A stretch of DNA of 44,182 nt, taken from Acetobacter persici JCM 25330. Its GTDB lineage: Bacteria > Pseudomonadota > Alphaproteobacteria > Acetobacterales > Acetobacteraceae. Shown here in pieces: positions 2,158-44,182 of this stretch; the first letter of the stretch is position 1; each line of letters opens with the position of its first letter. The notes beneath the pieces were generated by a model, which worked only from the letters and a program-made list of their open reading frames with translations, ran no database searches and had not been told where the DNA came from. The DNA is taken from assembly GCF_000613905.1 (NCBI RefSeq), contig NZ_BAJW01000027.1, forward strand, positions 1-44,182, in the 5' to 3' direction. Made by a program: the position numbers and the translations under genes.

Positions 2158-2199
2158 GGGCATCCCTGCAAAATAAACGTCAAAGCCGGTCTTATACCA

Positions 2200-2238
2200 T
2201 AAGCCCTCTTTCATGCCGAAGAGCAGAAAGAGGGCTTA
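2200..2238. other. 13-bp perfect inverted repeat (stem-loop)
   Basis: TAAGCCCTCTTTC at 2200-2212 pairs exactly with GAAAGAGGGCTTA at 2226-2238 around a 13-nt loop. It lies between the satP stop and the phosphoesterase start, 43 bp upstream of the latter. It could end satP transcription or act in the phosphoesterase 5' leader; no good U-tract follows on either strand. Confidence 0.6.
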
Positions 2239-14539: not shown

Positions 14540-14553
14540 GAGGAAAAAGCGTC

Positions 14554-19202: not shown

Positions 19203-19209
19203 GCGCACC

Positions 19210-20252: not shown

Positions 20253-20294
20253 CAGCGGATGCAGGCAGGAAGAGCCAGAAAAAGGAAGTCATGG

Positions 20295-21485
20295 ATGCAG
20301 GACGTTATTATTGTTTTTAACAGTGGCTCTTCCAGTCTGAAATTTACAGTTTACGATACCGCTGACAGCCAGAAAGCGACGGTGCTTCTCAAGGGTGAAA
20401 TTGAACAAAGCCCGGCAGGGGCGCGTCTGCATGCCAAACATCATGAAGGCGTTGCGCTTCCGTCCGAAGACTGGTCCGAAACGGGCTTAGATATTTTTGA
20501 CCATCTGTTCCGCTGGATGGAGCAGTTTTCCGGCAAAGGGCGCGTTGTGGCTGTCGGGCACCGGATTGTGCACGGTGGCGCGGATTTTCTGGAACCTGTT
20601 AAAATTACGGCCGAGGTTTTGCACAAGCTGGATCAACTGACGCCGTTTGACCCGCTCCATCAGCAGGCCACACTGGCTCCTGCAAAAGCCATTGCGCAAA
20701 AGCGGCCAGATCTTCTGCAGATCGCCTGTTTTGACACCACATTTCACAGCACCATTCCCAGAGTGGCCCGGCTTTTGCCTCTTCCTCGCCGATATGAGGC
20801 GCAGGGGGTGGTGCGCTATGGTTTTCACGGTATTTCTTACAGCTATATCGCCCAGCGTCTGAGGCAGATTGACCCGGTGCTTGCAACTGGCCGCACCATT
20901 ATCGCGCATCTGGGCAGTGGCGCGAGCCTGTGTGCGTTGAAGGACGGAAAAAGCCTTGAAACCACAATGGGGTTTTCAGCGCTTGATGGGCTGATGATGG
21001 GTACGCGCTGCGGGGCGATTGATCCGGGTGTGCTACTCTATATGGTGCAGGAAGAAAAGGCGGACTGGCGCGTGCTGGTGCAGACGCTGTACCATGAGTC
21101 CGGTCTGCTCGGCGTCTCTGGTGTTTCGCCGGATATGCGGGTTCTGCGCGAGATGCTGGCGCAGGATCAGGCGTCTGCTCAGAGTCAACAGATCGCTGAA
21201 GCCCTGAGCCTGTTTGTATACCGTATCCGGCAGGAGATTGGCGCTTTGGTGTCCGTCATGGGTGGGCTGGATGGATTGGTCTTTACCGCAGGAATTGGTG
21301 AGCATGATGCCGCCTTGCGGCAGGAAGTCTGTCAGGGTCTGGAATGGGCGGGAGTGACGCTGGATGCTGAGGCAAACTGCCAGAATGCAGCCGTTATCAG
21401 CGCCCCCGACAGCCGGGTAAAGGTGCGCGTCACACCGACGGATGAGGAACGTGAGATTTATCTCAGTGTCCTGAAATTTCTCTGA
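20295..21485 (+). CDS. ackA: acetate kinase
   Basis: The 396-residue protein carries the family motifs in order: VFNSGSSSLKF at the N-terminus, GHRIVHGG near residue 90, FDTTFHSTIP near 145, YGFHGISYSY, the phosphate-binding AHLGSGASLCA, MMGTRCGAIDPG, and GIGEHDAALR near the C-terminus. It transfers phosphate from acetyl phosphate to ADP, giving acetate and ATP. It is the last gene of the pyruvate-acetate operon, 42 nt after pta. AGGAAG lies about 6 nt before the ATG at 20295; an in-frame start 12 codons earlier has no better site. Confidence 0.95.
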   Translation: MQDVIIVFNSGSSSLKFTVYDTADSQKATVLLKGEIEQSPAGARLHAKHHEGVALPSEDWSETGLDIFDHLFRWMEQFSGKGRVVAVGHRIVHGGADFLEPVKITAEVLHKLDQLTPFDPLHQQATLAPAKAIAQKRPDLLQIACFDTTFHSTIPRVARLLPLPRRYEAQGVVRYGFHGISYSYIAQRLRQIDPVLATGRTIIAHLGSGASLCALKDGKSLETTMGFSALDGLMMGTRCGAIDPGVLLYMVQEEKADWRVLVQTLYHESGLLGVSGVSPDMRVLREMLAQDQASAQSQQIAEALSLFVYRIRQEIGALVSVMGGLDGLVFTAGIGEHDAALRQEVCQGLEWAGVTLDAEANCQNAAVISAPDSRVKVRVTPTDEEREIYLSVLKFL

Positions 21486-21684: not shown

Positions 21685-23309
21685 TCAGAAAATCTGACGG
21701 AACAGCACGTAGAGGAAGCCGGAGATTGCCATAGCAGCGGGAAGGGTGGTGACCCATGCCAGCGCCATGGAGCGCAGCGTGGATAATTGCAGACCGGACC
21801 CGTTTGACCACATGGTGCCAGCTACACCGCTGGACAGAATATGCGTGGTGGAGACGGGCAGACCATATCGCTCAGCCAGGCCGATGGTGGTCATGGCGAC
21901 CAGTTCAGCAGAGGCGCCTTCAGCGTAGGTCATGTGGGTCTTGCCGATTTTCTCACCCACCGTCACCACAATGCGTTTCCAGCCAACCATGGTGCCAAGC
22001 CCGAGCGCGATGGCGACGGAGATTTTCACCCAGAGCGGGATAAAGCGCGTGCCGCTGTAAAGGGAAGACTGGAAGGATTTGAGAGACTTCTTTTCGTCCG
22101 CATTAAAGCCCTGCGCATCCCCCATCACGCGGATGGCGTCTGCAACCAGATACATGTCTGTACGAACGTTGGGGACGGCAGCCGCCGGAACGGCCTTCAT
22201 GGAGCCATAGGTTTTGACGGAGGTGGAAATATCCGTGCTCAGAACGGACAGAGCACCGAAGATTTCAGGGGAGGAGACCGCTTTGGCACGCAGAGCGGCA
22301 CCAACAATGTCACGCGCCTGCTGCTCTGTCAGGTCCGCCGGGGTGCCTGTGCCGTGGCTGGCGAAAATCTGCTGCGCATGGCCTGCAGATTCAATAAAGG
22401 CAGGCATCGCACTTTCCGGCATGGCGCGGTTGAGCGCGTAGGCCGTGGGGGCAGCGCCAATCAGAATGAGCATGATCAGACCCATGCCTTTCTGGCCGTC
22501 ATTCCCGCCATGGGAGAAGGAAACACCCGTGCAGGTAAAGATCAGCAGACCACGGATCCACAGCGGCGGCGGTTTATCACCTTCCGGTGCGCGATACAGG
22601 GCTTTATTTTTCACCAGCAGCTTCATGACAAACAGCAGAAGAGCCGCCATGAGAAAGCCGCAGGCGGGGCTGAACAGCAGAGCGGAAAATACCTTCTGGA
22701 CCTGACCCCAGTCCACACCCTGCGTGGCGGCACCTGCCGGAGCAAGGATCTGGTTGGCCAGACCCACGCCCATGATGGAGCCTACCAGCGCGTGTGAGGA
22801 ACTGTTGGGAATACCAAAAGCCCATGTGGCGAGGTTCCAGACAATGGCGGCAATCAGCAGCGCGAAGATCATGGCATAACCAGCGTTGCTGCCAGCCTGA
22901 AGGATCAGTTCAACCGGAAGCAGGGTGACAATGCTGTACGCCACCGCGCCGGTGGAGAGCGCAACCCCCAGAAAGTTCCAGAACCTGACCACACAACCGC
23001 AAACAGTGGCGGAAGGCTACGGGTGTAGATTACGGTGGCAACGGCGTTTGCGGTATCGTGAAAGCCGTTTACAAATTCAAACCCCAGAGCAATGACCAGC
23101 GCAATGCCCAGCAGCACAAAGGTGCCGACGGCCAGCGGGCCTTCCCCTGCGGAATGCATGTCCTGAAGGATGCTGAAGGCCGCAAAGCCCAGAGCGCCAA
23201 TCAGCACGGCGAAGAAAATAATGACATGAAGAGGTTTGTTGCCGACGTCCATATTCGGGCGTGTGGCCTGCATACTCTCTTCAGAAGAATTCATGACTGT
23301 CTGGGACAT
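21685..23309 (-). pseudogene. pit: PiT-family inorganic phosphate transporter, frameshifted
   Basis: The PiT signature EFVNGFHDTANAVATVIYTR lies in the N-terminal part, and its partner SFSHGGNDGQKGMG plus TWAFGIPNSSSHALVGS lie in the later part. Both are needed for phosphate:cation symport across the inner membrane. The frame breaks after AVVWSG; one missing base at 22982-22983 (plus-strand AA for AAA) restores FWNFLGVALSTGAVAY and gives 541 residues. A long middle domain separates the two transmembrane halves. A near-perfect Pho box lies 70 bp upstream of the start, so expression probably rises in phosphate limitation. Confidence 0.9.
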
Positions 23310-28842: not shown

Positions 28843-30315
28843 CTAAACCGTCGCCTGATGACGATCTTCCAGAGTGTTGAGCATCCGGGCCAGAAGGAGG
28901 GCAACGCTGACCAGCCCGAGGCCGCACAGGCACAGAATGCCAAACAGTGCTTCATAATGATGGCTGTGGAGCGGGACGGCTGTTGCGGGCGGGCTGGCGA
29001 GGCTGGCAATCTGACTCCCTAAATACATCCCGGCTCCGACTGTCAGATAATAGGCCCCGACCATCAGGCCATTCAGGCGGGCGGGCGCGTAGCGGGCAAT
29101 AACGGCCAGCCCTAAGCCGCCAATCAGTAACTCCGCCGTGGCAAGAGCAAAATAACCGCCCAGCATGGGCCATGCGCTGGTCAGGCCGGGGCCAGCAAGA
29201 TAGGTGCCGCCCCACCAGATAAAAAAGGCCAGGGCTACAAAACCGAAGCCTGCCGCGAATTTTGTCGGCAGGGAGAAGTCCCGGTTCCGGCTGGCAAGAG
29301 CGTGATAGAGTTTGGCGAGAAGGGGGCTGAGCAGAATAATGAAGATCGGGTCAAGCGCCTGAAACTGAGCGGCTGAAAGTGTGAACAGGGCATGCCCTGC
29401 AAGCCGGAACGTGCCATCAACATGGGTGAGGGCAAACAGGGTCAGGGAAGTTTGCATCTGCTGGTAGAAGCAATAGAACGCAATGCTTTGCAGCAGCATG
29501 ACCCCCATGGTGACCAGATTCAGCCGCTCCCGTGAGGCCGCACGGCGGTAGAGTGCCCCCCAGAGTAAAGCCACCAGCGCGAGGCAGCCCAGAACAGCCA
29601 GTCTGGCGAAAGAGGCGCTGGAAAGCACGGCCATAACCGCGAGCGCGCAGAACGCAATGGCTCCCGCACCCGCAGCCGCGGAGCGGAACTGGAGGGGAGT
29701 GTAGTCTGGTGCGGAACCAGTAAGGCGTAAGGCCCGCGTGCGGGACAGCAAAATCAGCAACGCGCAGGCAGGCCCGGCCACACAAAGCCCGAATGCGGTG
29801 AGGGACCCGGCATGGTCCCGCACCCACGGAATACACAGCATGGAGAGAGCGGAGCCGACATTGGCGGCCATATAATAGAGCGTAAAGGCGGAATCCCGCT
29901 CCTGCGGCTGGTCTTCATAAAGGCAGCGGATAAGCTGGGCGGCGTTGGGTTTGAAGAGCCCGTTGCCGGTTGCAGCCAGTGCCAGTGCGGGCTCAAACAG
30001 CGTGCGATACACAGTGGACAAAGCAAGCAGGCCATAACCTGCACTCAGCAGAATGGACCCCAGCACCACCGTGCGCCGGGCCCCATAAACGCGGTCTCCC
30101 AGCCAGCCGCCCAGCAGAGGTGTGGCGTAAATCATGGCAGCGAAAGCCCCTACCAGCAGATCAGCCCCCATATCGGCCATGCCAAGCTGTTGCACCATAA
30201 ACAGCAGCAAGATGGCTTCCATGCCGTAAAACCCGGCACGTTCCGCCGCTTCCGTGACCAGCAGGGTTAAAAAAGCGGAGCGTCGGGCTGTCAGGGGAGG
30301 GGCGTCTGGCTGCAC
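28843..30315 (-). CDS. proton-dependent oligopeptide transporter, POT/PTR family
   Basis: The 490-residue membrane protein has the POT signature TEAAERAGFYGMEAILLLF in helix 1, a variant of the ExxERFxYYG proton-coupling motif. It also has GGWLGDRVYGARRTVVLGS after helix 2 and FTLYYMAANVGSALS for the PTR2 motif. These carriers import di- and tripeptides with protons across the inner membrane. The promoter region shared with the exported glycosidase gene contains a GTATACGAT site 95 bp upstream of this start. That ties the carrier to the hydroxyproline/arabinoside region to its right. Intact. Confidence 0.9.
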   Translation of the reverse strand: MQPDAPPLTARRSAFLTLLVTEAAERAGFYGMEAILLLFMVQQLGMADMGADLLVGAFAAMIYATPLLGGWLGDRVYGARRTVVLGSILLSAGYGLLALSTVYRTLFEPALALAATGNGLFKPNAAQLIRCLYEDQPQERDSAFTLYYMAANVGSALSMLCIPWVRDHAGSLTAFGLCVAGPACALLILLSRTRALRLTGSAPDYTPLQFRSAAAGAGAIAFCALAVMAVLSSASFARLAVLGCLALVALLWGALYRRAASRERLNLVTMGVMLLQSIAFYCFYQQMQTSLTLFALTHVDGTFRLAGHALFTLSAAQFQALDPIFIILLSPLLAKLYHALASRNRDFSLPTKFAAGFGFVALAFFIWWGGTYLAGPGLTSAWPMLGGYFALATAELLIGGLGLAVIARYAPARLNGLMVGAYYLTVGAGMYLGSQIASLASPPATAVPLHSHHYEALFGILCLCGLGLVSVALLLARMLNTLEDRHQATV

Positions 30316-30407
30316 AGAGAGGGTCCTTACATCGTCACACGCGCAGAGGAAGCTATGCGGCTAAGAAGCTGGCGCGGAAGAGCGGGTCGAAAGTCTGGTT
30401 TCTTATT

Positions 30408-30417
30408 TCGTATACGA
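30408..30417. promoter_or_regulatory. GntR-type operator candidate near the peptide transporter
   Basis: TCGTATACGA is a perfect 10-bp palindrome centred on GTATAC, the core found in many FCD-type GntR operators. It lies about 93 bp upstream of the POT start codon. Confidence 0.55.
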
Positions 30418-30541
30418 TCATACAGAGAAGATCGGTTCGGACAAGAAATTAGTCTGAAAAAGTGACTGATATTTCCAGCAACCCGTTTTCTGATTTTGTT
30501 GAAAGCGCGTGCGATAAAATCTACCTCTCTTGCCAAAAATG

Positions 30542-30550
30542 GTATACGAT
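30542..30550. promoter_or_regulatory. GntR-type operator candidate near the glycosidase gene
   Basis: GTATACGAT here is identical to 30410-30418 and overlaps the likely promoter of the plus-strand glycosidase gene. Confidence 0.5.
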
Positions 30551-30652
30551 ATATTAAAGATATTCCCGTGATTGAGAGGCTTCAGCACAGTGAGACGATG
30601 TTTTGCAGGGCAGGCGGGCCGCCCCACCGGAAGGAATACGGTTTCCGGGTGC

Positions 30653-33486
30653 ATGGGCTTCCAGACACGGATGCTCTGGCAGCGTGTTCCCTGCGCTCTC
30701 ATACTGGCGGGGTTAGGCGGGGCAGGCCTTGTGGGGCCGTTATCGGCTTTTGCGCAGGGTGGGTCTGCTGTAGGGCAATCCGATAAGTCTGATCAGCCTG
30801 TGTTCCACTGTAATGCTGCAAAAAGCCTGACTCTTTGCGATGCCGGGCCGTTTTTTCTCCGGTTTCAGGCATCGGACGGAACGTTGCGGGCGCTTTCTGC
30901 TCTGACAGATAAAGACGCGGATTATCTGCCATGGCGCATAGAGGGGCGTCGGCAGGGGAATGGTTTCGCGCATCTGGGTGACATTGATTTCCGGCTGAAA
31001 ACCGAAGGGGAGACGGGTTGGCAGGATTATGCCTCATGGCATGTCAGGCAGCCCGTAACACAACGCCCCACCCGGAACGGGGGGCAGGAGAGTATCCTGC
31101 GGCGGGACGATATGAGTGCCTCTCTGGGGCATGGGTTTCCGTTACAGGTTGTTCGTGCATGGAGGCTCTCCGGGCAGGATCTGGTTTTGGAGTTTTCTGT
31201 CACCAATCCCGGCAAACAGACCGTGACCATTGGCGGTTTGGGCATGCCGATGGTGTTCGGAAATGACTTTACCGATGAAACACTGGAAGAGGCACACCAG
31301 CACGAAGTGTTTGTGGACCCGGCGATTGCGCGGGATGGGGGGTATATTCAGGTCACGCGGATGAGCGGGGCGGGGCCTGTTTTGCTCGGGGTGCCGGAGG
31401 GGCACACACCACTGGAAGCATATCGTCCGATTATGGATGCGCCTCACGCAGTGCCCAAAGCAAGTGCCGTGCTGACGGATGGCACGCCCCGGAGCCAGAC
31501 GTTTGAAGGGTTTTATGACTGGATGCCCGCCAGCGCCGGTTTTGCCGCGCAGGAGTGGAAAAACGCGGGCGCGCAATGGAATACTCCGAAACAGTTTAGC
31601 TTGCACCCCGGTGAAACACGCAGTTTTGGCATCCGCTTTACGTTTGCGCCCGGTGTGCGCGGGATTGAAAAAACACTGGCAGAGCATGGGCGGCCGGTTG
31701 CCGTCAGCCTGCCGGGCTATGTGGTGCCGCAGGACCTGCCCGCTACCCTTTACCTTCAGGCACCGCTGCCTGTCCGGTCTTTTTCCGTGGAGCCGGAGGG
31801 GGCGCTGAGCCTTGTCCCGGAAGGCACGCGCGGGGTCTGGCAACGTTATCGGGTGGAAGGCACAACATGGGGCCGGGCGCGCCTGTCCGTCACGTACGTT
31901 GATGGCAGTGTGCAGACGCTGAACTATTTTGTCACCCGTGCGGCCCGGACGGCTGCTGAGGAAATGGGGCGTTTCCTGTTTTCCCGGCAGTGGTATGAAA
32001 ACCCGGCAGATCCGTTCCATCGTAGCCCGTCGATCATGACGTATGATCGGGAGGCCGGGCATATCGTCACGCAGGAGCCGCGTGTCTGGATTGCCGGGCT
32101 GAGTGATGAGGGCGGGGCTGGCAGCTATGTTGCCGCAGCCATGAAAGAGCTGGACAACCCCGACCCGCAGGAAGTTGCGAAGCTGGAGCGGTTTGTCAAT
32201 GAAACTGTGACTGGGCGCTTGCAGGTTGCATCAGGGCCCGCAGAGGGCGGTGTCCGGAAAAGCCTGTTTTATTATGATCCGGCTCATTTCCCCGATTTGT
32301 ATAAGACAGGCGAAAACTGGAAAACATGGGCGTCATGGTCGCGGGAAAAAGCGGCGGATATCCAGCGGGCTTATAATTACCCGCATGTCGCTCTGGTGCA
32401 CTGGGTTTTGTATCGGCTGGCACGCAACCATACCGGCTGGTGCAGCAGCATGATGCGCTGTGGTATCTGCATAAGGCAGCTGTCACAATGACCGCCATGA
32501 TGCAGCAGGCCCCGTACTACACGCAGTATGGCCTGATGGAGGGGGATATTTTTGTTGAAATCCTCAGGGATTTAAAACGGGAAAACCTGACAGAAGAAGC
32601 GGGCGTAATCGAAACGCTTATGAAAAAGCGTGAGACTGTCTGGAAAGGTCAGCGCTACCCGTATGGGAGTGAAATGGCATGGGATTCCACCGGGCAGCCG
32701 GAAGTGTATGCGTGGCTGACCTATTTTGGTGATACGGCACAGGCGGCGGAAACGCGGGATGCCATTCTGGCGTATGATCCGGCTTTGCCAAGCTGGGGTT
32801 ATAACGGAAATGCCCGCCGGTACTGGGATTTTCTCTACGCCGGAAAACGTGCCCGGATAGAGCGCCAGATCCACCATTATGGCTCTGCACTGAATGCCGT
32901 TCCGCTGTTTTCGGCTTTTCAGGCTCAGCCCGCAGACTTGTATATGCTCCGTGTGGCCTATGGCGGCCTGATGGGTGCTTTAACCAATATTGACCAGCAG
33001 GGGTTTGGATCAGCCGCATTCCATTCTGCCCCGGATGCCATGCAGTTTGATGCCTATTCCGGAGATTACGGCATGGGGTTTTATGGGCATGCTCTGGCAA
33101 CGCAGGTTGATGTGATCAAAGACCCCACGTTTGGCTGGCAGGCTTTTGGGGCGCTCTTGCAGGAAGGCCGTGATGGCAGTGTGATTATTCTGCCAAAAGA
33201 TAGTGCCAGAACACGTATTTTCATCGCGCAGGCGGGCGTCTTCCTGACGCTGGAAAGCGGAAAGTTTGAAGCGGTGCAGTATCATCCTGCCTCTCAGGAT
33301 ATTGAGATCACACTCGCAGCGGCAGACCGCTGGACCCCGATTGCGCGCCTGCGCGCTGACTACCCTGCCAGAATCCCTGCGCATCCCTACGTTCTGAGCC
33401 CCGTAGCACCAGACGTGCGGGGCGCGTGGGAAATACCTTTGCACAGCACGGCGACCGTTCTGCATCTGCATGCAGGGCAGCCTTGA
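30653..33486 (+). pseudogene. exported DUF5695-like putative glycosidase (six-hairpin type), frameshifted
   Basis: A signal peptide (VPCALILAGLGGAGLVGPLSAFA) is followed by a large beta-sandwich-like half (FLRFQASDGTLRALSAL, VTNPGKQTVTIGGLGMPM). An alpha-rich half comes next (YPYGSEMAWDSTGQPEVYAWL, SWGYNGNARRYWDF), typical of (alpha/alpha)6 hydrolases. I recognise it only loosely as a DUF5695-type protein; activity is unknown. One missing base at 32435-32436 (GG for GGG) separates the halves; restored, HTGLVQQHDALWYLHKAA joins them in a 944-residue protein. The ATG at 30653 gives a good signal peptide but its ribosome site (GGAAGGA) is about 14 nt away; earlier non-ATG starts exist. It precedes the GH127 gene by 71 nt, so the two likely act together outside the cytoplasm. 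Confidence 0.72.
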
Positions 33487-33557
33487 GACGGATTACATTC
33501 TGAGAGCTTTATTTTCGGAAACAGAAGATAGTTTTTGCACGGTGGGAAGGGAAGAGT

Positions 33558-35952
33558 ATGGGGATCAGACTGAACAGGCGTTTCCTGCTGACAAGTGCGG
33601 CTCTGGGTGGCGTGGTATCCGGTGTGCCCGGAATACGCCGGGCATTTGCCTCAGGGGGTGGGGACAGGGCGGGCGGAGCTGGAGAGGCTGTAACCCCGGT
33701 GCCGCTGCAGGATGTTCGGTTGCTTCCTTCCCCGTGGCTTGATGCGGTTGAGAGAAACCGAGCTTATCTGCTGAGCCTGAGCGCGGACCGTCTGTTGCAT
33801 AATTTCCGCACACAGGCGGGGCTGCCAGCTAGAGGCGCAGTTTATGGCGGGTGGGAGAATGACACGATTGCCGGGCATACGCTCGGCCATTACCTCTCTG
33901 CTCTGGCTCTGATGTACGCGCAGACAGGGGATGCCGAATGCCGCAACAGGGTGGCCTATATTGTGCAGGAATTGGCGCTTGTTCAGACTAAATGGGGCGA
34001 CGGGTATGTTGCAGGCTTTACCCGCAAGGAAAAAGACGGAAAAATTACCGGCGGGAAAATAATTTTTTCTGAAATTGAAAAGGGCGATATCCGCTCAGGT
34101 GGATTTGACCTGAACGGAGCATGGTCTCCGCTTTATAATATCCATAAAACATTTGCCGGTCTGTTTGATGCACAAACCTACTGCCAGAATACGGATGCGC
34201 TGGCCGTAGCGGTCAGGCTGGGTGGTTTTTTTGGGGTTTTTTACAGCAAACTGACAGACGCGCAGCTCCAGAAAGTTCTGACCTGCGAATATGGTGGACT
34301 GAACGAGAGTTTTGCCGAACTGGCTGCCCGCACAGGGGATGCAAAGTGGCTGAAACTGGCAAAGCGCACCTATGACCCCCCGGTGCTTGACCCGCTAATG
34401 GCGCGGCAGGATGATCTGGCCAACCGGCACGCCAATACGCAAATCCCGAAGCTGATCGGGCTGGGGCGGATTGCGGAGGTAAGCGGGGATAAAAGCTGGC
34501 AGGTGGGGCCGCGTTTTTTCTGGCAGGCCGTGACCCGGCACCATAGTTACGTGATCGGCGGGAATGCGGACCGGGAATATTTCTCGGAACCAGACACAAT
34601 TTCTCAGCATCTGACGGAGCAGACCTGCGAGCATTGTAATACGTATAACATGCTCAAGCTGACGCGGCAGGTTTACACATGGCAGCCGGACAGCACGCTG
34701 TTTGACTATTACGAGCGTGCGCATCTGAACCATGTTCTGGCGGCGCATGATCCACAAACCGGATTGTTTACCTACATGACCCCGACCATCACCGCCGGTG
34801 TGCGGGAGTGGTCAACCCCTGAGGACAGTTTCTGGTGCTGCGTGGGCACCGGCATGGAAAGCCATGCCAAACATGGAGAGTCCATCTGGTGGCAAGGGGC
34901 TGAGACGCTCTTTGTGAACCTCTATATTCCCTCCCGCCTGCACTGGGCGGCTCAGGACGTTGTCTGGCGAATGGACACACGTTACCCGTATGACGGGCAA
35001 ATCACTCTGAGCGTGGAAGAGGCGAAAGCGGCCGGGCATTTCCGTCTGGCTCTGCGGGTTCCGGGCTGGGTTGAGGCACTATTGCTAAAGGTAAACGGTG
35101 AGACAGTCCCGGCGCAGCCCGAAGGTGGATATGTTACTCTCAACCGGGTCTGGCGTAAGGGGGATACCGTCGCCCTGACATTGCCTCTGGCACTGCGCAC
35201 GGAAGCCCCGGTGGAAGCCCCGCATCTTGTCTCGCTCCTGCACGGCCCCATGGTGCTGGCTGCTGATCTCGCCACAGCCGAAGGCGCTTATGATGCTATG
35301 GACGGCACTTGTGACATCGGATGTTGTGCGGGATTTTGTGCCGGTGGCAGGGCAGGATGCGGTCTATCGCACGACCCAGGCCGGACGACCGGCGCAGCTT
35401 GAATTCAAACCTTTTTATGCGCAGTACAAGCGCCGCAGCGCCCTGTATCTGCGGTGTTTTTCAGAAACGGACTGGACGCAGGAAGAAGGTGTGTATCGTG
35501 AGGAACAGCGCCGCCAGAAGGATATCGCGGCCCGCACGATTGATGTCATTCATCTGGGTGAGATGCAGCAGGAGCATGATCACGGCCTGAAGGCGGATGA
35601 GTCCTGGCCGCTTGTCTATCGCGGGCGGAACGGGCGGGATCTGCGCGCGGGCGGGTTTATGGAATTTACCCTCAAGGCTGCTCCGGGGCCGCTGGTTTTA
35701 CAAACGACATTGTGGAGCAAGGATAGTCCGCGCACACGGGGCACGCATATTCTGATTAACGGTAAAGCCCTTTCCGGCCTGAACTGGCCTGCGGAGACGC
35801 CAGCGCGGTTTGTGGAGATGGAGGTTGCGCTTCCGGAAGCATGGACACGCGGAAAAAAGAGCCTGACGGTGCGTATTGTACCCGGTGGGTCCCGTTCCAA
35901 TGGTCCGTTCTTTGGGGTGCGTTTGCTGGCGGCCCGTAAAAAAGCGGAGTAA
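33558..35952 (+). pseudogene. Tat-exported GH127 beta-L-arabinofuranosidase, frameshifted
   Basis: The protein opens with a twin-arginine signal (NRRFLLTSAALGG). The GH127 core shows GGWENDTIAGHTLGHYLSAL near residue 100. The Zn/thiolate active site is EHCNTYN (E358, C360) and FWCCVGTGMESHAKHG (C427, C428). In characterised HypBA1 these correspond to the Glu and three Cys that bind zinc, one Cys being the nucleophile. That enzyme releases beta-L-arabinofuranose from hydroxyproline-linked arabinosides. A C-terminal DUF4986-like domain (ESWPLVYRGRNGRDLRAGGF) follows. The frame shifts somewhere in 35227-35402, equivalent to two lost bases, probably two single-G losses near 35298-35304; corrected length is about 798 residues. 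AGGGAAGAG precedes the ATG. Confidence 0.87.
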
Positions 35953-36053
35953 CGCACTCAGGCCGGTATTTTCAGCCATCTTTATGTGTATTGGTTGTTT
36001 CGGCGTGGGGAATGCCTTAGCTATACAGACAAGATCTGAGCGATAGAAGTGAA

Positions 36054-36064
36054 GTTTGTATACT
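36054..36064. promoter_or_regulatory. GntR-type operator candidate overlapping the gntR start
   Basis: GTATAC at 36058-36063, within TTTGTATACTA, ends one base before the start codon of the GntR gene. It shares its core with the two sites near 30.4-30.5 kb and suggests autoregulation. Confidence 0.5.
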
Positions 36065-36724
36065 ATGAGCACCCCACAGAAGACGCGACTTGTGTCGCGG
36101 TCTATTTCAGACCAGCTTTATGATGTTCTCCGCGAGCAAATCCTGAATGGCGAGGTGGGGGAGGGCGAACCGATCCGGCAGGACGGGATTGCCGCAGCGT
36201 TTGAAATCAGCAAAATCCCGGTGCGTGAAGCACTGGTGCGCCTGCAACAGGATGGTCTTGTTTCTCTGCATCCTAAGCGCGGATTTTTCGTCACGCCGCT
36301 GACGCGCAAAGAAGCGGAGGATGTTTTTCACCTCCGCTTGCTGATTGAGCCGGAGGCGACGGCTCTTGGCGCGCAGAGTGCAACGGAAGAAGATGCAAAA
36401 AAGGCGCAGGCCTGTCTGGAAGAGCTGGAAAACGCCGTCGCACGGCAGGACCCCCGGCGGGGCGTGTATAACCGGCTTTTTCATCTGGCTCTTGTCCAGC
36501 CTGCGGCAGGCCCCACGACCATCCATGTGCTGACCCTGCTCAACGTGACGGCGGACCGTTATGTACGCTTCCATATGCACATGCAGGATATTGATACCCG
36601 CGCTAATCAGGAACATCGTGAACTGATGGCCTGCTGGCTGGCAGGCAACAAGCGCGAGATTGAAAAGCTGATGCGCAAACATATTCAGACGACGCTGGAT
36701 GATCTCCGCGGCGCACTGAAATAA
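36065..36724 (+). CDS. GntR-family regulator, FadR subfamily (FCD domain)
   Basis: The 219-residue protein has the winged helix-turn-helix of the GntR family (YDVLREQILNGEVGEGEPI, then AFEISKIPVREALVRLQQDG). An all-helical FCD domain follows, with the metal/ligand residues in NRLFHLALVQPA and EHRELMACWLAGN. FCD regulators often respond to small organic acids or amino-acid derivatives. The gene sits 112 nt after the GH127 gene on the same strand and is convergent with the permease/hydroxyproline operon. It is a plausible controller of both. Its start codon is preceded by a GTATAC palindrome rather than a strong ribosome site. Intact. Confidence 0.88.
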   Translation: MSTPQKTRLVSRSISDQLYDVLREQILNGEVGEGEPIRQDGIAAAFEISKIPVREALVRLQQDGLVSLHPKRGFFVTPLTRKEAEDVFHLRLLIEPEATALGAQSATEEDAKKAQACLEELENAVARQDPRRGVYNRLFHLALVQPAAGPTTIHVLTLLNVTADRYVRFHMHMQDIDTRANQEHRELMACWLAGNKREIEKLMRKHIQTTLDDLRGALK

Positions 36725-36792
36725 AATTCCAGCCTGCGAGAGTCGTCTGCCTGTAAGCGGGGTTATCAAGTGCAGGCAATGTGAAATTGCTT

Positions 36793-36832
36793 TGCCTGCC
36801 TGCCTGCCTGCCTGCCTGCTTACTTGCTTACC
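36793..36832. repeat. TGCC tetranucleotide tandem repeat
   Basis: Six perfect copies of TGCC occupy 36793-36816. Degenerate four-base units (TGCT, TACT, TGCT, TACC) follow to 36832. It lies between the stop of the GntR gene and the stop of the convergent permease gene. Confidence 0.85.
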
Positions 36833-36856
36833 TACCGCCTGAACTGCCGCCGTTTT

Positions 36857-38416
36857 TTACCGGGCTGTTTTTACGCCGCAGAGGGCTGCCCAATGATGAA
36901 TAATCAGTGCAAAGGCAATCACTGCCACATCATCCCATACATGGTTCAGCAGGCCCGTGCCTGAAACGGGCCGCACCATGAGAGACCAAGCAGCCCCAGA
37001 AAATATACCGGCATCCACAGGCTGCTGCGGAGTTCCTGAGACCACGCGGCACTGGACAGGTTGCGCCGCACAAGCATCATGAAAATACCCGTCAGCACCA
37101 GCAGGGCGGGCATCAGCCAGCACAGGGTGCTCCACCCCGTCCAGATAACAATCAGGGAGGCGATGGCAAACGCCAGAGGGGAGAGCACGGAAAACAGGGC
37201 AGGCGGAAAGGGCGGGGCAAGTCAGGCTGACAGCGGCGCAGGGCCGCTGCCGATGTAGGGGCCATGGCATAGCTGAGCATGAGTGCGGAAGACACGACCC
37301 CAATCAGCGCCTGCCATGAGGGGAAAGGAAGAGTCCAGAACAGCGCCAGCCCGAATGTCAGTAGCAGGGCTTTGTCCGGCACGCCGCGCTGCGTGTCCAT
37401 GCGCTGAAAAACCGGAAAGAACGTGCCGCTTCTGGACCACGCATAAACCACACGGGCCGTGGCCGACATGTAGATATTACCTGTGCCGGTGGGGGAGAGG
37501 ATGGCATCTGTCACAACCATCAGCGCCAGAAAGCCCAGACCAAGCTGCACGGCAATATCATGGAAGGGCAGGCTGAGCCGGGTCGCGATCCCGTTCCAGC
37601 CGTCCGTCAGCAGGGCTGGAGGCAATGCGCCGATAAATGCCGTTTGCAGCAGCAGATACACCAGCATCGCCAGCGTGATGGAGGCCACCAGTGCAATGGG
37701 AATGGTGCGCTGCGGGTTGCGCACTTCACTGGCAACCGAGAGGATGGGGGTCAGCCCCAGATAGGCAAAAATAACGCCACCGGCGGAAATGGCGGTTTCC
37801 ACACCCTGAAAGCCATGCGGCGCAAAGCCATGCAGGCTGAAGTTGCCGGGGTGCATGGCGGCCAGAAGCAGGACGACAACGAGTGTCGGCACCAGAAATT
37901 TGAAAACCGTCACAATATTGTTGATAAGTGCAAAACTGCCAATACCGCGCCGGTTGATGGCATACAGCAGCCCCATGACGGCAAGCTGGACCAGCCACCC
38001 GGCCAGAGTAGGGTCTCCGCTGGCATTGCGGGTCAGGCCCCCTGTCCAGGCATCCGCATACTGGCGAGCGGCCACGATCTCGATGGAGATCAGGCTGGAG
38101 AAGGCGATGGTCGTCATGGCACCGGTCAGAAAAGCCGCGGTCGAGCCATGTGCCTGTTCCGGGTAGCGCACGACGCTGCCTGCCAGCGGCAGGGCCGCCC
38201 CCAGTTCACAATAGACCAGCCCGATCAGCAGAACCGCAATCCCGCCGATCAGCCAGGAGACGATGCTGGCCGGACCTGCCATATCCGCACGTGTGCTGCG
38301 GCAAACAGCCAGCCGGAGCCGAAGATGGAGCCGAAGCCGATCATTGTCAGATCAAACAGGCCAAGGCGTTGCCTGAAGTGGCCTGAGTCATCATGCTGTG
38401 TGGCGTCATGCGGCAT
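36857..38416 (-). pseudogene. APC-superfamily permease, aspartate:proton symporter (YveA/AspP)-like, three frameshifts
   Basis: The reconstructed protein has 520 residues and about twelve membrane helices. It closely tracks the Bacillus YveA family as I remember it: LGLFDLTMIGFGSIFGSGW, LIGLVYCELGAALPLAGSVV, SGWL-type loops, and a C-terminal LIIHHWAA segment. Three single-base losses break it: 38288 (plus-strand C for CC), 37197-37199 (GGG for GGGG) and 36960-36961 (CC for CCC). AGGA lies about 8 nt before the ATG at 38416. It is the last gene of the minus-strand operon. The family imports an amino acid with a proton; proline or hydroxyproline is an inference from neighbours. Confidence 0.85.
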
Positions 38417-38460
38417 GAAGGGTTCCTGTCGTCCGTCTCGGGGCTGGCTGGCGGTGGGCT

Positions 38461-40020
38461 TTAGTGGCTGGTCTGGCGCGGCAGCTTCAGCGGGTTTGTG
38501 CTGCGAAGCCCGGCTGGCAGAAGTGCGTCCGGCAGATCCTGATAGCACACGGGGCGCAGAAAGCGCTCAATGGCCGCCGTGCCGACGGAAGTGCTGCGCG
38601 GGTCCGTTGTGGCGGGGAAGGGGCCGCCATGCACCATAGCTGCACAGACTTCCACGCCCGTAGGCCATGCATTAGCCAGAATACGGCCAACCTTGCGTTC
38701 CAGAACCGGCATCAACTGGCTGGCGGTGGCAATGTCGGCGTCGTCCATGTGCAGGGTCGCGGTGAGCTGGCCCTCAAGGCTGCGGCTCAGACGCAGCAGC
38801 GTCTCCAGATCCGGGCAGGCGACAATCAGGGAGCAGGAACCAAAAATCTCATGCTGCATCACCGGGTCTTGCAGGAAATGCGCGGCATCCGTCGTGAAAA
38901 CGGCAGCCTGACAGCCGGATGCCTCACCGTTTGGCCCACGCCCCAGCAGAGTGACGCCCGGACGGCTACCGAGTGTTTCCACGCCAGCATCGTAAGACGC
39001 ATGGATGGACTGTGTGAGCATGGTGGGCGCAGGGGCGGTTTTAAGAGCCTCCTGCGCGCTCTGGCAGAAGCGATCCAGATCCGGGCCGCTGAGGGCAAGA
39101 ATAAGGCCGGGATTGGTGCAGAACTGGCCTGCCCCCATGGTGAGTGACCCAATAAAGGCCGCGCCCAGAGCGTCTGCACGGGTCTTCAGGGCTTCTGGCA
39201 GCAGATAGACGGGATTGATGCTGCTCATTTCCGCATACACCGGAACAGGCACCGGGCGGGCCGCCGCAATCTTGCTCAGCGCGATGCCGCCTGAGCGCGA
39301 GCCGGTATAGCCAACAGCCATAATAGCGGGGTGTCGGACCAGTTCTGCGCCAAGCGTATAATCCGGTCCGCCCAGCAGGGAAAACGTGCCCTCCGGCAGG
39401 CCGCATTTTTTCACGGCGGACTGAATGGCGCGGCCGACCAGTTCACTCGTGCCGGGATGAGCCGGGTGCGCTCTTACCACCACCGGGCAGCCAGCGGCAA
39501 AAGCGGACGCGGTATCGCCTCCGGCAACGGAGAAAGCCAGCGGGAAGTTGCTGGCTCCAAAAACAGCAACCGGGCCAACGCCAATGCGGATCTGGCGGAG
39601 GTCCGCGCGGGGCATGGGTTTGCGGTCGGGCAGGGCTTCATCAATCCGGGCGTCAAGGCAGCGCCCGACCCGCAGTTCCTGCGCAAACAGGCGGAGCTGG
39701 CCGGTTGTGCGGCCCCGCTCCCCCGTCAGGCGGGCCAGAGGCAGGCCGGTTTCCGCATGGGCGCGGTCCAGCAGGTGCTGCCCGATCGCTTCAATTTCCT
39801 CTGCAATACAGTCCAGAAACTGCGCGCGGGCTTCCGGCGTGGTGGCGCGGAAGGTGTCAAAGGCCGCATCCGCCAGCGTGCAGGCGGTCCCGGCATCTTC
39901 GGCGGTTGCGCAGGAGAACGCTGTGTCCAGCGCCTCACCCGTTGCGGCATTCAGGGCCTGAAAGGTTTCCGGGCGGTTGACCGTATTCTGGCCGATCAGA
40001 AGAGCGCCTGTCAGAGTCAT
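38461..40020 (-). CDS. alpha-ketoglutarate semialdehyde dehydrogenase (type III-like)
   Basis: The 519-residue enzyme is an aldehyde dehydrogenase of the subgroup that oxidises 2,5-dioxopentanoate (alpha-ketoglutarate semialdehyde) to 2-oxoglutarate. Recognisable parts are [20 protein letters not shown] in the cofactor region, [19 protein letters not shown] holding the general-base glutamate, and [11 protein letters not shown] with the catalytic cysteine. The C-terminal [17 protein letters not shown] is typical of this subgroup. This reaction is the last step of both hydroxyproline breakdown and the non-phosphorylative L-arabinose route. AAGGA lies 7 nt before the ATG. It is 9 nt after the D-amino-acid dehydrogenase gene, in one operon. 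Intact. Confidence 0.9.
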
Positions 40021-40029
40021 GGGGTGTCC

Positions 40030-41280
40030 TTATATGCGGGAGCCGGAGCGCAGGCTGAACCTGTCCGGGCTGAAAGCTGTTGGGAGGGGCGCGCCACGCA
40101 GGATGTGGGCGCTCAGTGCTTCTGCGGTTACAGGGGCGAGGGTCAGCCCCAGATGGTTGTGCCCGTAGGCAGCCACAAGGCGTGGCGCGTGGCGGAAGCT
40201 GCCGAGGGCAGGCAGGTAATCCGGCAGGGTGGGGCGAGAGCCATGCCAGCGTGCAAAATCAGACGCCACTGGCAGGCCAAGCGCGCGGACATGCGCTTCA
40301 AGCCGTTCCCATTTCCGTGGATCGGGTGGAGAGGAATCCTTTGTAAACTCAACAAAGGAGGTGGCGCGAAGCCGGGAGCCAAAGCGGGTGACGACAACGG
40401 CCCGGTCTTCAAAAACCGCATTGGGCAGGTCCATCGTCCGCCATGAGTCCATTCCACATGGTAGCCGCGTTCCGCCACCAGTGGCACCGGGACATCAGGC
40501 AGCAGAGAGCCCGAACGCACACCGCAGGCCACGACGACGCGGTCTGCCGTCAGGTCGCCCTGCGTGGTGCTGACACGTACCGTCTCCGCTGCGTGGTCGA
40601 TTTTGAGTGCGCGTGCGGAAAGCACTATGCCACCGGCCGCCGTAAAGCGAGCCAGAAGCGTGTCCAGCACGTCCCGCGGGCTGGTGATGTGCGCGGTCTC
40701 TGCAAAATGCACTCCGGCTCTCACCGGGGAGGAAAGAAACTGGTTAAAGGCCGCAACCTGCGGTGCCTCCATGCGGATGGCGCGTGCAGGGCCGTGGTCG
40801 GCCTGAAGCGCACTGGCGGCTTTCTGCTCGGCGTCATCCCCCTCCCACAGTTTCACAATACCGCGCAGGTCAAGAAGGTCTGGTCTGTCCAGTGTTGTGA
40901 TCAGCCTTTTCCATGCGGGCAGGGCGTTGAGCATCAGGCCGCGCAGGGCGTCATCCCCCCGGTGGACTGTGCCCGGCAGGCAGGCACGGAGGAAGCGGAC
41001 TGACCACGGCAGCCATGCGGGCAGGCTGCGCCAGTCCAGTGCGACGGGCCCACGGGGGAAATGGTCAGACAGCACACGGGTTGCCGTGGCAAGGCGGGCC
41101 AGAACCTCAACCTGTTCCGTCGCGATATGTCCGGCGTTCCCCCAGGATGGCGGCGTGCTGTCCGGCTCAGCCACCAGTGTTACGGCGCAGCCTGTTCCTG
41201 AAGGCGCAGGGCGCAGGCGCGCGCAATGATGCCGCCCCCCAGAACGAGGACGGAGCGGGGGGAGGGAGAGCCTCCGTCAT
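40030..41280 (-). pseudogene. FAD-dependent D-amino-acid / D-hydroxyproline dehydrogenase (DadA-like), three frameshifts
   Basis: Reconstructed, the 417-residue protein starts with a Rossmann FAD motif (VLVLGGGIIARACALRL). It has WGNAGHIATEQVEVLA and ends with AAYGHNHLGLTLAPVTAE, hallmarks of DadA-type oxidoreductases. Three single-base losses break it: the six-G run at 41257-41262, 41183 (plus-strand C for CC) and 40435 (C for CC). The ATG at 41280 overlaps the stop of the upstream peptidase gene (ATGA), which strongly supports this start. In hydroxyproline catabolism such an enzyme oxidises cis-4-hydroxy-D-proline to pyrroline-4-hydroxy-2-carboxylate. The adjacent semialdehyde dehydrogenase supports that role, but other D-amino acids are possible. 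Confidence 0.85.
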
Positions 41281-43037
41281 AGCGGTGCGCACGCGCGTTG
41301 CAGCCAGCTCTGCTCTTCAGCCGCAAGATGCGGGCCAATCTGTTCCAGAACATGCGCGTGGTAGCTGTTCAGCCAGTTCCGCTCAGCGTCCGTCAGACGT
41401 TCGGGCATGATGCCGCGTGTATCGATTGGGGCCAGTGTGAGGGTTTTGAAGCGGAGATACTCTCCGGTTTCAGTTCTGTAGGCCACACAGGTCTCCATCT
41501 GGTTTTCCAGACGCATGCCGTGGGAGCCGGGGGCGTAGAAGCCGGGTTCATTCGTCATGACCATCCGATCATAGAGCGGGTCAAGCACCGGGCGGCGGGT
41601 GAAGCCGAGAGGCCATTCATGCACGGAAAGGCAACTGCCGACGCCATGGCCTGCCCCGTGGTCAAAATCCAGCCCTTCTTTCCACAGCGCCAGCCGCGCC
41701 AGTGGGTCCAGCCTGTACCCATGCGTGCCTGCCGGGAATATGGTCTGATCCAGCGCAATCAAGCCCTGAAGCACACAGGTATACTGCTTTTTCCATTCCT
41801 CCGGTGGGGCGCCGGTGCCCATCCAGATCGTCCGGGTGACGTCTGTCGTGGCGCAGGTATACTGCCCGCCACTGTCAACCAGCAGAAAAGCATCGTCCTG
41901 CACCCTGCTGCATGCCTCCGTAGTCGGTGCGTAATGCATGATGGCCGCATTCGGGCCTGAGCCTGCGATGGTATGAAAACTTGGGCCGATACAAAGGGCG
42001 GACTCACGGCGCAGAGCCAGCAGATGGTCTGCTATGGCGGCTTCTGTCTGGCCGATACCATTGCCTTCCACCCAGTACAGGAAGCGGCACAGGGCGATGC
42101 CATCCAGCAGATGCGCCCGCCGCATCCCTTCCAGTTCTGCTGGCGTTTTGCAGGCTCTGGGCATCAGGCAGGGGTCTGTGCCATCTACGAGTGTTGCATC
42201 GACGTCTCTGAGGATGCTGGCGAACCAGACAGGGCAGCGGCCTGTATCCAGCCGGACGGTCTTGCCGTGCATGGTCTGCAAAACCTGCTCCATGTCCGCA
42301 GGCATATGCACACGGACGGCGGTGCCAAGGTGTGCGCGCACCGCGCCATCAATCCGGGTGATGTCAATAAACAGATCAACCGTGGCATCGGCATGCAGAA
42401 TGGCAAAGCAGAGCACGACCGGCAAAAAGGGCAGATCACGCCCGCGGATATTCAGAAGCCAGGCAATGCTTGTCGGGTCAGGCAGAATAACGGCGTCCTG
42501 CCCGCCTTTGCGCAATGTTTCCGCAATGGTCAGGATTTTTGCATGGGTTTCAAGCCCGGTGAGGGCAAGAGGCTGAACACAGGCCGGGGTGGCCGGAGCC
42601 GGGGGCCGGTCAGCCCAGAGGGCATCAATCGGATTGCAGGAGAGTGCGACCATATGGCATCCGGCCTGCTCCAGCGCCTCAATCTCCCGAACGCTGACGC
42701 TGCGCGGGTCAAACCCGATGGACAGGCCCCGCCCATGCTGCGCCAGCCACAGCGGCGGCGGTGTTTCATACATATGCTCAACAGACCAGAGGGAGGCGTC
42801 CACCTGCTGGCGCATCTGCACCTGATAACGGCCGTCAGAAAAGACAGCCGCCTTTTTTGGCAGGACGACGGCCAGTCCGGCGCTCCCTGTAAAGCCGGTC
42901 AGCCATGCCAGACGTTCCGCGCAGGCGGGAACGTATTCGCCAAGATGTTCATCACCGCGCGGCAGGAAGAAGCCGTCCACGCCAAGGCCGGACAGGGCGG
43001 CGCGAAGGGCCGTCAGGCGTTCTGTGGGGGTGGGCAT
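41277..43037 (-). CDS. pepP: Xaa-Pro aminopeptidase (aminopeptidase P, M24B)
   Basis: The 586-residue protein has two N-terminal creatinase-like domains (GVDGFFLPRGDEHLGEY, WLTGFTGSAGLAVV) and a C-terminal pita-bread metallopeptidase domain. The metal ligands are in LVDSGGQYTCATTDVTRT, DHGAGHGVGS, TNEPGFY and MRLENQ. Such enzymes remove the N-terminal residue from peptides whose second residue is proline or hydroxyproline. Length and three-domain layout match the long eukaryote-like aminopeptidase P type. No signal peptide, so cytoplasmic. AAGGA lies about 11 nt before the ATG. It overlaps the DadA-like gene and follows another M24 gene by 24 nt. Intact. Confidence 0.92.
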   Translation of the reverse strand: MPTPTERLTALRAALSGLGVDGFFLPRGDEHLGEYVPACAERLAWLTGFTGSAGLAVVLPKKAAVFSDGRYQVQMRQQVDASLWSVEHMYETPPPLWLAQHGRGLSIGFDPRSVSVREIEALEQAGCHMVALSCNPIDALWADRPPAPATPACVQPLALTGLETHAKILTIAETLRKGGQDAVILPDPTSIAWLLNIRGRDLPFLPVVLCFAILHADATVDLFIDITRIDGAVRAHLGTAVRVHMPADMEQVLQTMHGKTVRLDTGRCPVWFASILRDVDATLVDGTDPCLMPRACKTPAELEGMRRAHLLDGIALCRFLYWVEGNGIGQTEAAIADHLLALRRESALCIGPSFHTIAGSGPNAAIMHYAPTTEACSRVQDDAFLLVDSGGQYTCATTDVTRTIWMGTGAPPEEWKKQYTCVLQGLIALDQTIFPAGTHGYRLDPLARLALWKEGLDFDHGAGHGVGSCLSVHEWPLGFTRRPVLDPLYDRMVMTNEPGFYAPGSHGMRLENQMETCVAYRTETGEYLRFKTLTLAPIDTRGIMPERLTDAERNWLNSYHAHVLEQIGPHLAAEEQSWLQRACAPL

Positions 43038-43061
43038 GCTGGTGTCCGTCCTTCCAGACGA

Positions 43062-44182
43062 TCAGTTAAACGGAGCCGTAAAGCTGTGAGCGGGTTCGGT
43101 AAACCAGCGGGGGCCGTCTTCCGTCATGTAAAAATGGTCTTCAAGCCGGATACCAAATGTTTCAGGGATAACGATCATCGGCTCGTTAGACATACAGTGC
43201 CCGACCTTGAGCGGGGTAGTGTTGCCCCGCACCAGATAAGGAGCCTCATGGATGGAAAGTCCGATCCCGTGGCCTGTGCGGTGTGGCAGACCGGGGAGAT
43301 TGTAACCCGGGCCAAGGCCATGCTGTTCCAGCACTGCGCGGGCGGCGTCATCCACCACATGGCAGGGTGCGCCAACGCGGGCGGCGTGGAAAGCGGCATA
43401 CTGGGCCGCTTTTTCAATTTCCCATATCCGCTGCTGTTCCGCGTCCGGTTGCCCGAAAGCGTAGGTGCGGGTGATGTCGGAATGATATCCGTCGAGACGA
43501 CAGCCGGTATCAATCAGAACAAGATCATTCTCCGCCAGAACCTGATCCCCGGGGATGCCATGCGGGTAGGCCGTGGCATGTCCGAACTGAACTGCACAGA
43601 AATAGGACCCGTTATCGGCGCCGAGTTCCCGGTGGCGTGCGTCAATAAAACGGCGGATCTCGCTGGCCAGAAGGCCGGGCTTTAAAAACGCATAGGCGTC
43701 CTGATGCACCTGGAGCGTGATGGCCATGGCGTGTGTGATGAGGGCAATTTCTTCCGCCGTTTTGCAGGCGCGCAGGCTGGAAATCAGTCCGGCATCATCT
43801 TCCAGCACAAGGTCAGGCCGCGCTTTGCGCATGGCGGTGACAAACCCGAAGCTAAAGTCCGGGTCCAGTGCGATGCGGGCCCCTGCGGCATACGGTGCTA
43901 AAGCGCAGAGGGCCGGATTTTCGTCCTCCTGCCATGTGGCAATCTCGACATCTGTGCGCAGGCAGGCCTTGAGAGACCCCGTTTCAAAATGCGGGCAGAC
44001 CACAACAGGCGCGCCCTGCCGGGGGATAACCAGCGTTACCAGCCGTTCTGTTGCATCCCACGGCACACCGGTAAAATAGCGCAGGCTGTTTCCGGCATTC
44101 ACAGCAAGGGCGTCAAGTCCGGCTGTTTCCAGATGCCCCTGTACTGTGCGGATGCGCTGCGCAAAGGTTGCGCGGCCAATGG
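43062..44182 (-). CDS. M24 family Xaa-Pro dipeptidase/creatinase-like peptidase, 5' end outside the window
   Basis: The frame is open to the right edge, so the N-terminus is missing. About 373 residues are visible. The creatinase-N domain part (GNSLRYFTGVPWDATERLV) is followed by the catalytic domain with metal ligands in DTGCRLDGYHSDITRT, HRTGHGIGLSIHE, NEPMIVIPETFG and RLEDHF. It belongs to the prolidase/Xaa-Pro dipeptidase part of the M24 family; DoeA-like hydrolases are similar and cannot be excluded. It is the first visible gene of the minus-strand operon. A dipeptidase for Xaa-Pro or Xaa-Hyp would supply free (hydroxy)proline to the enzymes downstream. Confidence 0.87.
   Translation of the reverse strand, partial: IGRATFAQRIRTVQGHLETAGLDALAVNAGNSLRYFTGVPWDATERLVTLVIPRQGAPVVVCPHFETGSLKACLRTDVEIATWQEDENPALCALAPYAAGARIALDPDFSFGFVTAMRKARPDLVLEDDAGLISSLRACKTAEEIALITHAMAITLQVHQDAYAFLKPGLLASEIRRFIDARHRELGADNGSYFCAVQFGHATAYPHGIPGDQVLAENDLVLIDTGCRLDGYHSDITRTYAFGQPDAEQQRIWEIEKAAQYAAFHAARVGAPCHVVDDAARAVLEQHGLGPGYNLPGLPHRTGHGIGLSIHEAPYLVRGNTTPLKVGHCMSNEPMIVIPETFGIRLEDHFYMTEDGPRWFTEPAHSFTAPFN

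Follow-up and report, generated by a model that had tools for sequence, protein, structure and literature searches.

A candidate locus for the utilization of plant hydroxyproline-rich glycoproteins in Acetobacter persici JCM 25330

The 44,182-nucleotide stretch of Acetobacter persici JCM 25330 analysed here (the window; contig C210 of genome G000, positions 1-44182) carries at 28843-44182 a set of genes that very probably forms one locus, and probably one regulon, for the utilization of plant hydroxyproline-rich glycoproteins (HRGPs). Extensins and arabinogalactan proteins (AGPs) are glycosylated on hydroxyproline (Hyp), which shields them from ordinary proteases. The genes found here and on a second contig, their linkage in other bacteria, and a palindrome common to them point to such a system.

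Genes of the locus

Nine genes are found at 28843-44182, based on the list of open reading frames and on Pfam and NCBIfam profile scans of the window proteins. All of the genes claimed there in a first-pass annotation of the sequence were located: a GH127/146-type glycosidase, a second exported glycosidase-like protein (DUF5695), the peptide importer PTR2, two M24 peptidases, a DAO-type enzyme, and an aldehyde dehydrogenase. Two locus genes are additional to that annotation, a GntR/FCD regulator (36056-36724, + strand; PF00392, PF07729) and an amino-acid permease (about 36869-38395, - strand; PF13520). The regulator is a candidate for control of the locus, and a GTATAC core lies at its gene start (36058). 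The permease, a candidate Hyp/Pro importer, has three frame breaks, and its pieces match a whole protein of Acetobacter cerevisiae.

The first gene encodes a PTR2/POT-type di- and tripeptide:H+ symporter (28843-30315, - strand; PF00854, E-value 5.5e-51; TIGR00924, 264.2 bits against a cut-off of 130.2). Two palindromic sites, both proposed operators and each with two mismatches to TATCGTATACGATA, separate it from the gene for an exported DUF5695 protein; one is at 30406-30419 and the other, directly before the DUF5695 gene, at 30538-30551. The DUF5695 gene, predicted to encode a carbohydrate-active enzyme, lies in two frames (30572-33486, + strand) with a break near 32433, while locus L057 has it as a whole frame. 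It is followed by the gene for a predicted exported GH146-type beta-L-arabinofuranosidase with a DUF6805 tail (33558-35952, + strand; PF07944, PF20736, PF20620), which has a break near 35302. Beyond the regulator and permease is an aldehyde dehydrogenase, predicted to be alpha-ketoglutarate semialdehyde dehydrogenase (KGSADH; 38461-40020, - strand; PF00171), with a GQFC motif and 3v4c and 1eyy as the nearest solved structures. Next come a FAD-dependent DAO-type protein, predicted to be a cis-4-hydroxy-D-proline dehydrogenase (40042-41266, - strand; PF01266; two frame breaks), and an M24 peptidase of the aminopeptidase P type (M24b; 41277-43037, - strand; PF00557, PF16188, PF16189). The 3' end of the window falls inside the second M24 gene, which is of the PepQ type (M24a; 43062-44182, - strand; NF040821, E-value 4.9e-41, under its cut-off) and is truncated by the contig end.

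The glycosidase had been described as a Tat-exported GH127 enzyme. The gene is of the GH127/146 type and has a twin-arginine-like start, read from the sequence as NRRFLL, but the nearest family is GH146 and not GH127. The top of its six PDB matches is 5opj (E-value 2.7e-128), which we take to be BT0349 of GH146, although the molecule names printed for this entry are mixed. In comparison 4qjy, which is named GH127, matches at 1.3e-24, so the members of GH127 (HypBA1 type) are not the closest, and no recognised HypBA1 entry is among the six matches. EHC and CC of the window protein align with ETC and CC of 5opj, and the Zn-Cys3-Glu motifs of GH146 are kept. By sequence the enzyme is closest to GH146. 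BT0349 is reported to act on arabinotetraose and beta1,2-arabinobiose, and the GH146 members XeHypBA1 and Bll4HypBA1 to cleave Araf-beta-Hyp (PMC10850190). XeHypBA1 is also reported to release arabinose from Ara-Hyp (PMC6085000).

The absence of genes for hydroxyproline epimerase and the deaminase had been named as a finding that would refute the proposal, and both genes are present in the genome, on contig C189. A Pro_racemase gene lies at C189:5410-6378 (PF05544, 387.3 bits). Its product is 93% identical to an A. cerevisiae protein that scores 515.7 bits with NF010578 (4-hydroxyproline epimerase; cut-off 376), and the two Cys motifs of the epimerase are both present. A DHDPS-family gene (PF00701), the deaminase candidate, occupies C189:297-1149 in three frame pieces. 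From this gene onward C189 carries a DUF885 gene, GH42, the epimerase, a TonB receptor, and a second DUF885 gene. On the A. cerevisiae map the end of C210 falls at L021:15750 and base 18 of C189 at L021:15726; on that of A. malorum LMG 1746 the end of C210 falls at L056:5824 and base 8 of C189 at L056:5810. The start of C189 is thus within about ten bases of the end of C210 in both cases. Because the ends meet on the maps of two relatives, the contigs are taken to be neighbours in the genome.

Conservation and variation of the locus

Linkage of the glycosidase, the peptidases, and the Hyp genes is seen in close relatives. The scan with KGSADH covered the best 80 of 579 relatives, among which six have an identity of at least 80%: A. 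cerevisiae, A. malorum LMG 1746, A. malorum DsW_057, A. musti, Gluconobacter morbifer, and G. frateurii. All six loci carry the deaminase, DAO, permease, both M24 peptidases, and DUF885; they have the epimerase as well, although in three of them it runs off the edge of the locus. GH146 and PTR2 are found in five of the six, and the A. cerevisiae contig ends just past the GntR gene. DUF5695 is found in two, one of which has an internal loss. The beta-galactosidase type varies, with GH42 in three of the loci and a GH35-like type in the other three. The loci of A. musti (L058) and G. frateurii (L060) are 97.8% identical over 20.7 kb, so they are hardly independent; this suggests that the locus recently passed from one genus to the other or that one of the genomes is misnamed.

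Other relatives have other arrangements. Further stretches of nine genomes were compared, and in three of them (G194, G212, and G076) GH146 is found together with epimerase, deaminase, DAO, M24a, and permease. GH146 sits between M24b and M24a in G194 and G212. In the stretch of G003 KGSADH is accompanied by weak matches to DAO, deaminase, and GntR, and neither epimerase nor GH146 was found there. No linked Hyp set was found in G057, G223, and G350, which have no epimerase match in the whole genome, and none of the locus genes was found in C108:1-20000 of G009. Sphingomonas changbaiensis has a single run of KGSADH, PTR2-type, DUF885, GH146, Ldh_2-type, M24a, DAO, deaminase, epimerase, GntR, permease, and TonB receptor genes.

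Overall GH146, epimerase, and deaminase are linked on one contig in 18 genomes, the window genome being included through the presumed join of C210 and C189. The others are A. malorum (two genomes), A. musti, G. morbifer, G. frateurii, G194, G212, G076, S. changbaiensis, G854, G1245, G1376, G1415, G1369, G1328, G1315, and G784. Of the 18, seven belong to a second alphaproteobacterial family and one to another class; the rest are Acetobacter, Gluconobacter, other Acetobacteraceae, and the Sphingomonas species. These genomes were found by searching with locus genes, and 18 is therefore not a frequency; the argument from linkage rests instead on the varying gene order and glycosidase family. Beta-galactosidase types are found in 12 of the 18 genomes: GH42 in three, GH35-like with DUF5597 in seven, and GH2 in two.

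The DUF5695 gene had been called a second exported glycosidase-like protein. The gene is present and its product is exported, but the family is PF18951 (DUF5695). A profile of nine DUF5695 sequences matched a single PDB sequence, 5no8/5nok (BACCELL_00875), over three stretches with an E-value of 1.3e-11. BACCELL_00875 is reported to be a PL27 lyase that frees rhamnose from gum arabic and consists of a beta-sandwich and an (alpha/alpha)6 barrel (PMC8377490). DUF5695 resembles these L-rhamnose-alpha-1,4-D-glucuronate lyases by this distant profile match alone; it is a separate Pfam family and the similarity is low. An AlphaFold model made from a three-row alignment had a mean pLDDT of 35.9 and was not used.

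DUF5695 matches were found in four of 398 Pseudomonadota genomes (that in G568 is weak and was not counted on), in one of 274 genomes of the class of G784 (G784 itself), in ten of 249 of the family of G854 (G854 included), and in one of 200 of the window's family (the window genome). The match is strong in 12 genomes: G000, G784, and the ten of the family of G854. In the fetched stretches GH146 is near DUF5695 in 11 of these, the exception being G1425, and epimerase and deaminase are near it in nine, with G000 counted through the contig join. Among the 249 genomes of the family of G854, 32 have an epimerase over the cut-off, including all ten with DUF5695. The Fisher p-value for this co-occurrence is 3e-10 and the chance of linkage in seven of ten is about 2e-12, both treating as independent genomes that are related.

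A further family, X764, may occupy the place of DUF5695 where DUF5695 is absent. Its members have about 770-870 residues and an export-like N-terminus (L149:11158-13452, -; L152:8877-11243, +; L142:840-3263, +; L211:14207-16810, -). Apart from a weak TAT_signal match they have no Pfam family match, and a profile search gave no PDB matches. X764 occurs in the loci of G194, G212, and G076, which lack DUF5695, and beside DUF5695 in G1425.

A shared palindromic site

The window contains six copies of GTATAC, where 2.0 are expected and 2 of 100 shuffles have as many. C189:1-20000 contains five (0.9 expected), L057 seven, and L060 eight. The longer palindrome TATCGTATACGATA was derived from Acetobacter and Gluconobacter sites and was counted at up to three mismatches. 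The window has three sites (0.17 expected), two of them between PTR2 and DUF5695 and one inside an acetate kinase gene. C189 has four (0.09 expected), L060 seven (0.19), and L057 five (0.15). The counts in these four sequences were reached by 0 of 100-200 shuffles.

The sites are concentrated before the locus genes. Gene starts were taken as the interval from 130 bases inside to 300 bases before the tblastn start, and a site in a divergent region was counted for both flanking genes. In 24 locus sequences 77 of 89 sites are at starts of locus genes, a placement that is partly expected because locus genes are dense. The same is seen outside Acetobacter and Gluconobacter, in 17 sequences from 16 genomes that had no part in the design of the pattern (46 of 54 sites). 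The genes most often behind a site are deaminase (25), GH146 (16), M24a (13), PTR2 (12), DUF5695 (11), DAO (11), and TonB receptor (10). As controls, 71 KGSADH loci (1.32 Mb) have 15 sites, G350 and G057 have one each, and G223 has none. The density is about 0.11 per kb at the locus sequences and 0.011 per kb in the controls. The presence of one palindrome before both sugar and Hyp genes points to one regulon, and these genes are probably controlled together. We infer that the GntR protein binds the palindrome.

The rest of the window contains genes of other kinds. At 12843-21485 (+ strand) there is one run of genes for a GltD-like oxidoreductase (split), pyruvate:ferredoxin oxidoreductase (TIGR02176, 1689.9 bits), a dihydroorotate-dehydrogenase-like protein, a phosphate acetyltransferase-like protein, and acetate kinase. 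In this acetic acid bacterium the block has an anaerobic appearance. A phospholipase C/acid phosphatase-like protein is encoded at 508-2214 (- strand), with scores under the curated cut-offs.

The proposed system and its alternatives

Gene content, families, linkage, and the shared site were computed, and the catalytic steps are deduced from the families. The exported GH146 enzyme, with DUF5695 and often a beta-galactosidase, would take off Hyp-linked arabinose and other sugars. The peptide might be cut by exported DUF885 proteins, and the TonB receptor, the PTR2 symporter, and the permease would bring in peptides and Hyp. The two M24 enzymes would split X-Pro and X-Hyp bonds. Trans-4-hydroxy-L-proline would then be converted to 2-oxoglutarate by 4-hydroxyproline epimerase, the DAO dehydrogenase, the DHDPS-type deaminase, and the aldehyde dehydrogenase, in the order of steps given in PMC4113996. 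The GntR protein would control the gene set through the palindrome. The earlier suggestion that the locus strips arabinose, takes up and cleaves Hyp peptides, and feeds the TCA cycle is supported, as a prediction from sequence, by the epimerase and deaminase on C189, the one-contig linkage in relatives, and the common palindrome. The palindrome test raised confidence in this interpretation and lowered it for an arabinan module unrelated to the Hyp genes, an alternative discussed below.

Several results weigh against this interpretation. Among the enzymes of Hyp degradation, the aldehyde dehydrogenase belongs to PF00171 but is under every KGSADH cut-off (74.2 bits against 770), the protein described as DadA-like belongs to the DAO superfamily but all specific models are under their cut-offs, and the deaminase candidate is likewise under the cut-off in all seven NCBIfam models listed, so that none of the three reaches a curated functional cut-off. 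In the KGSADH scan tblastn found neither GH146 nor epimerase in 72 of the 74 weaker loci (55-64% identity), some of which are short; one of the remaining two has GH146 and the other epimerase. KGSADH alone was rejected as a marker of the locus for this reason. G099 has Hyp and M24 genes and A. cerevisiae has Hyp genes with no GH146 in view, while G223 and G350 have GH146 and no epimerase. Among the 12 genomes with DUF5695, three (G1261, G1289, and G1425) carry the epimerase elsewhere, and none was found in wider stretches around their DUF5695 genes; the palindrome is also absent from the 40 kb scanned in G1289 and G1261. GH121 and GH43, the HypBA1/BA2/AA partners, were not found in Pfam scans of the locus proteins. 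Frame breaks affect four window genes and the deaminase. Finally, neither A. cerevisiae DUF885 protein has an HExxH motif, though both match PF05960. HExxH is given as a motif for the clan containing DUF885 (PMC12572635), and its absence from both proteins makes a peptidase role doubtful; DUF885 as the peptidase of the locus is a guess. A gene for a DPP IV-type S9 peptidase is found in the stretches of G854, G1328, G1315, G1376, and G194, and the M24 enzymes and this protein are better evidence for proline-rich peptides than is DUF885.

To name extensin as the definite substrate is unsupported; extensin is one of two candidates and AGP is the other. Extensin-type Hyp-arabinosides are the favoured candidate and AGP is a possible one. 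If AGP were the target, DUF5695 would remove caps, beta-galactosidase would trim the galactan, GH146 would remove terminal beta-arabinose, and the Hyp core would then be used. The match of DUF5695 to an enzyme active on gum arabic and the beta-galactosidases of the linked genomes fit this explanation, as does the report that beta1,3-arabinose of AGP is the substrate of one bifidobacterial GH146 (PMC10850190). However, the GH146 of the locus is much closer to 5opj (432 bits) than to 8k7x/8k7y, which are specific for beta1,3 (152 bits), endo-galactanase and glucuronidase were not found among the scanned locus proteins, and many versions of the locus lack DUF5695. AGP as the main target is possible but rather unlikely.

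The frame breaks could also be real, the locus having decayed in this strain while remaining intact in its relatives. Compared with A. malorum DsW_057 there are seven breaks in the window genes (one in DUF5695, one in GH146, three in the permease, and two in DAO) and there are two more in the C189 deaminase; three other differences at the DUF5695 N-terminus, at the first base or mutually offsetting, were left uncounted. Against decay, genes outside the locus look cut too: 12843-13778 lies beside 13781-14539, and the model matches of 19608-20252 and 21685-22992 begin far from the model starts. The assembly has 236 contigs and 91.45% completeness. In addition, the broken genes resemble the unbroken ones in conservation: pieces of the permease, DAO, and deaminase share 76-97% identity with A. 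cerevisiae, the unbroken M24b 84% and M24a 90%. Decay is improbable, and the breaks are probably sequence errors.

The DHDPS and aldehyde dehydrogenase superfamilies serve the oxidation of hydroxyproline and also that of L-arabinose, and the two routes converge at alpha-ketoglutarate semialdehyde. The DHDPS-type gene and the aldehyde dehydrogenase might belong to an L-arabinose route with the same semialdehyde as its end, and arabinose is a predicted product of the locus. This is very unlikely: such a route has no use for the epimerase and DAO, and a further DHDPS-family gene, the only one in the genome apart from that on C189, is found at C235. The last step may be used by both routes. Least probable of all is that the Hyp genes serve general Pro/Hyp peptides (from collagen or insects, for example) beside an unrelated arabinan module of GH146 and DUF5695, as G099, G223, and G350 might suggest, since one palindrome precedes GH146, DUF5695, and PTR2 as well as deaminase, epimerase, DAO, and M24a, GH146 is placed among the M24 genes of G194 and G212, and the linkage persists in 18 genomes with differing gene orders.

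The HRGP locus shares parts with several known systems. Clusters for trans-4-hydroxy-L-proline have the same four superfamilies (4-hydroxyproline epimerase, DAAO-type oxidase, DHDPS-type deaminase, and KGSA dehydrogenase) with transporters and a regulator, as the available text of PMC4113996 describes them; here these are joined to exported GH146, DUF5695, beta-galactosidase, DUF885, TonB receptor, PTR2, and M24. The HypBA1/HypBA2/HypAA systems of Bifidobacterium longum and Xanthomonas euvesicatoria also act on Hyp-linked arabinose with a GH127/146-group arabinofuranosidase, but in the available text of PMC6085000 they concern the sugar and not Hyp or peptides. An in-silico proposal for HRGP degradation by Latescibacteria likewise includes GH127 and peptidases; the available part of PMC4454575 covers sugar release and general peptide use, with no Hyp pathway or single locus. 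The earlier statement that no combined locus had been described holds for the literature searched, in which no title or abstract dealt with one, most subscription journals and preprints being outside the reach of the search. One paper in that literature names DUF5695. What is new is the combination of known modules and the predicted role of DUF5695.

A broader interpretation has about an even chance of being correct. The locus would be an end-to-end HRGP regulon with one palindromic operator, in which a constant core is combined with exchangeable glycosidases. It would occur in at least two alphaproteobacterial families and in a single genome from another class. DUF5695 would be an uncharacterized carbohydrate-active family, distantly related to PL27 and dedicated to hydroxyproline-linked plant glycans. 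If this is true, it would show a route by which bacteria of fruit and plant surfaces can use wall protein as a source of carbon and nitrogen. DUF5695 would also gain a testable function, with A. malorum, G. frateurii, and S. changbaiensis as strains for a direct test.

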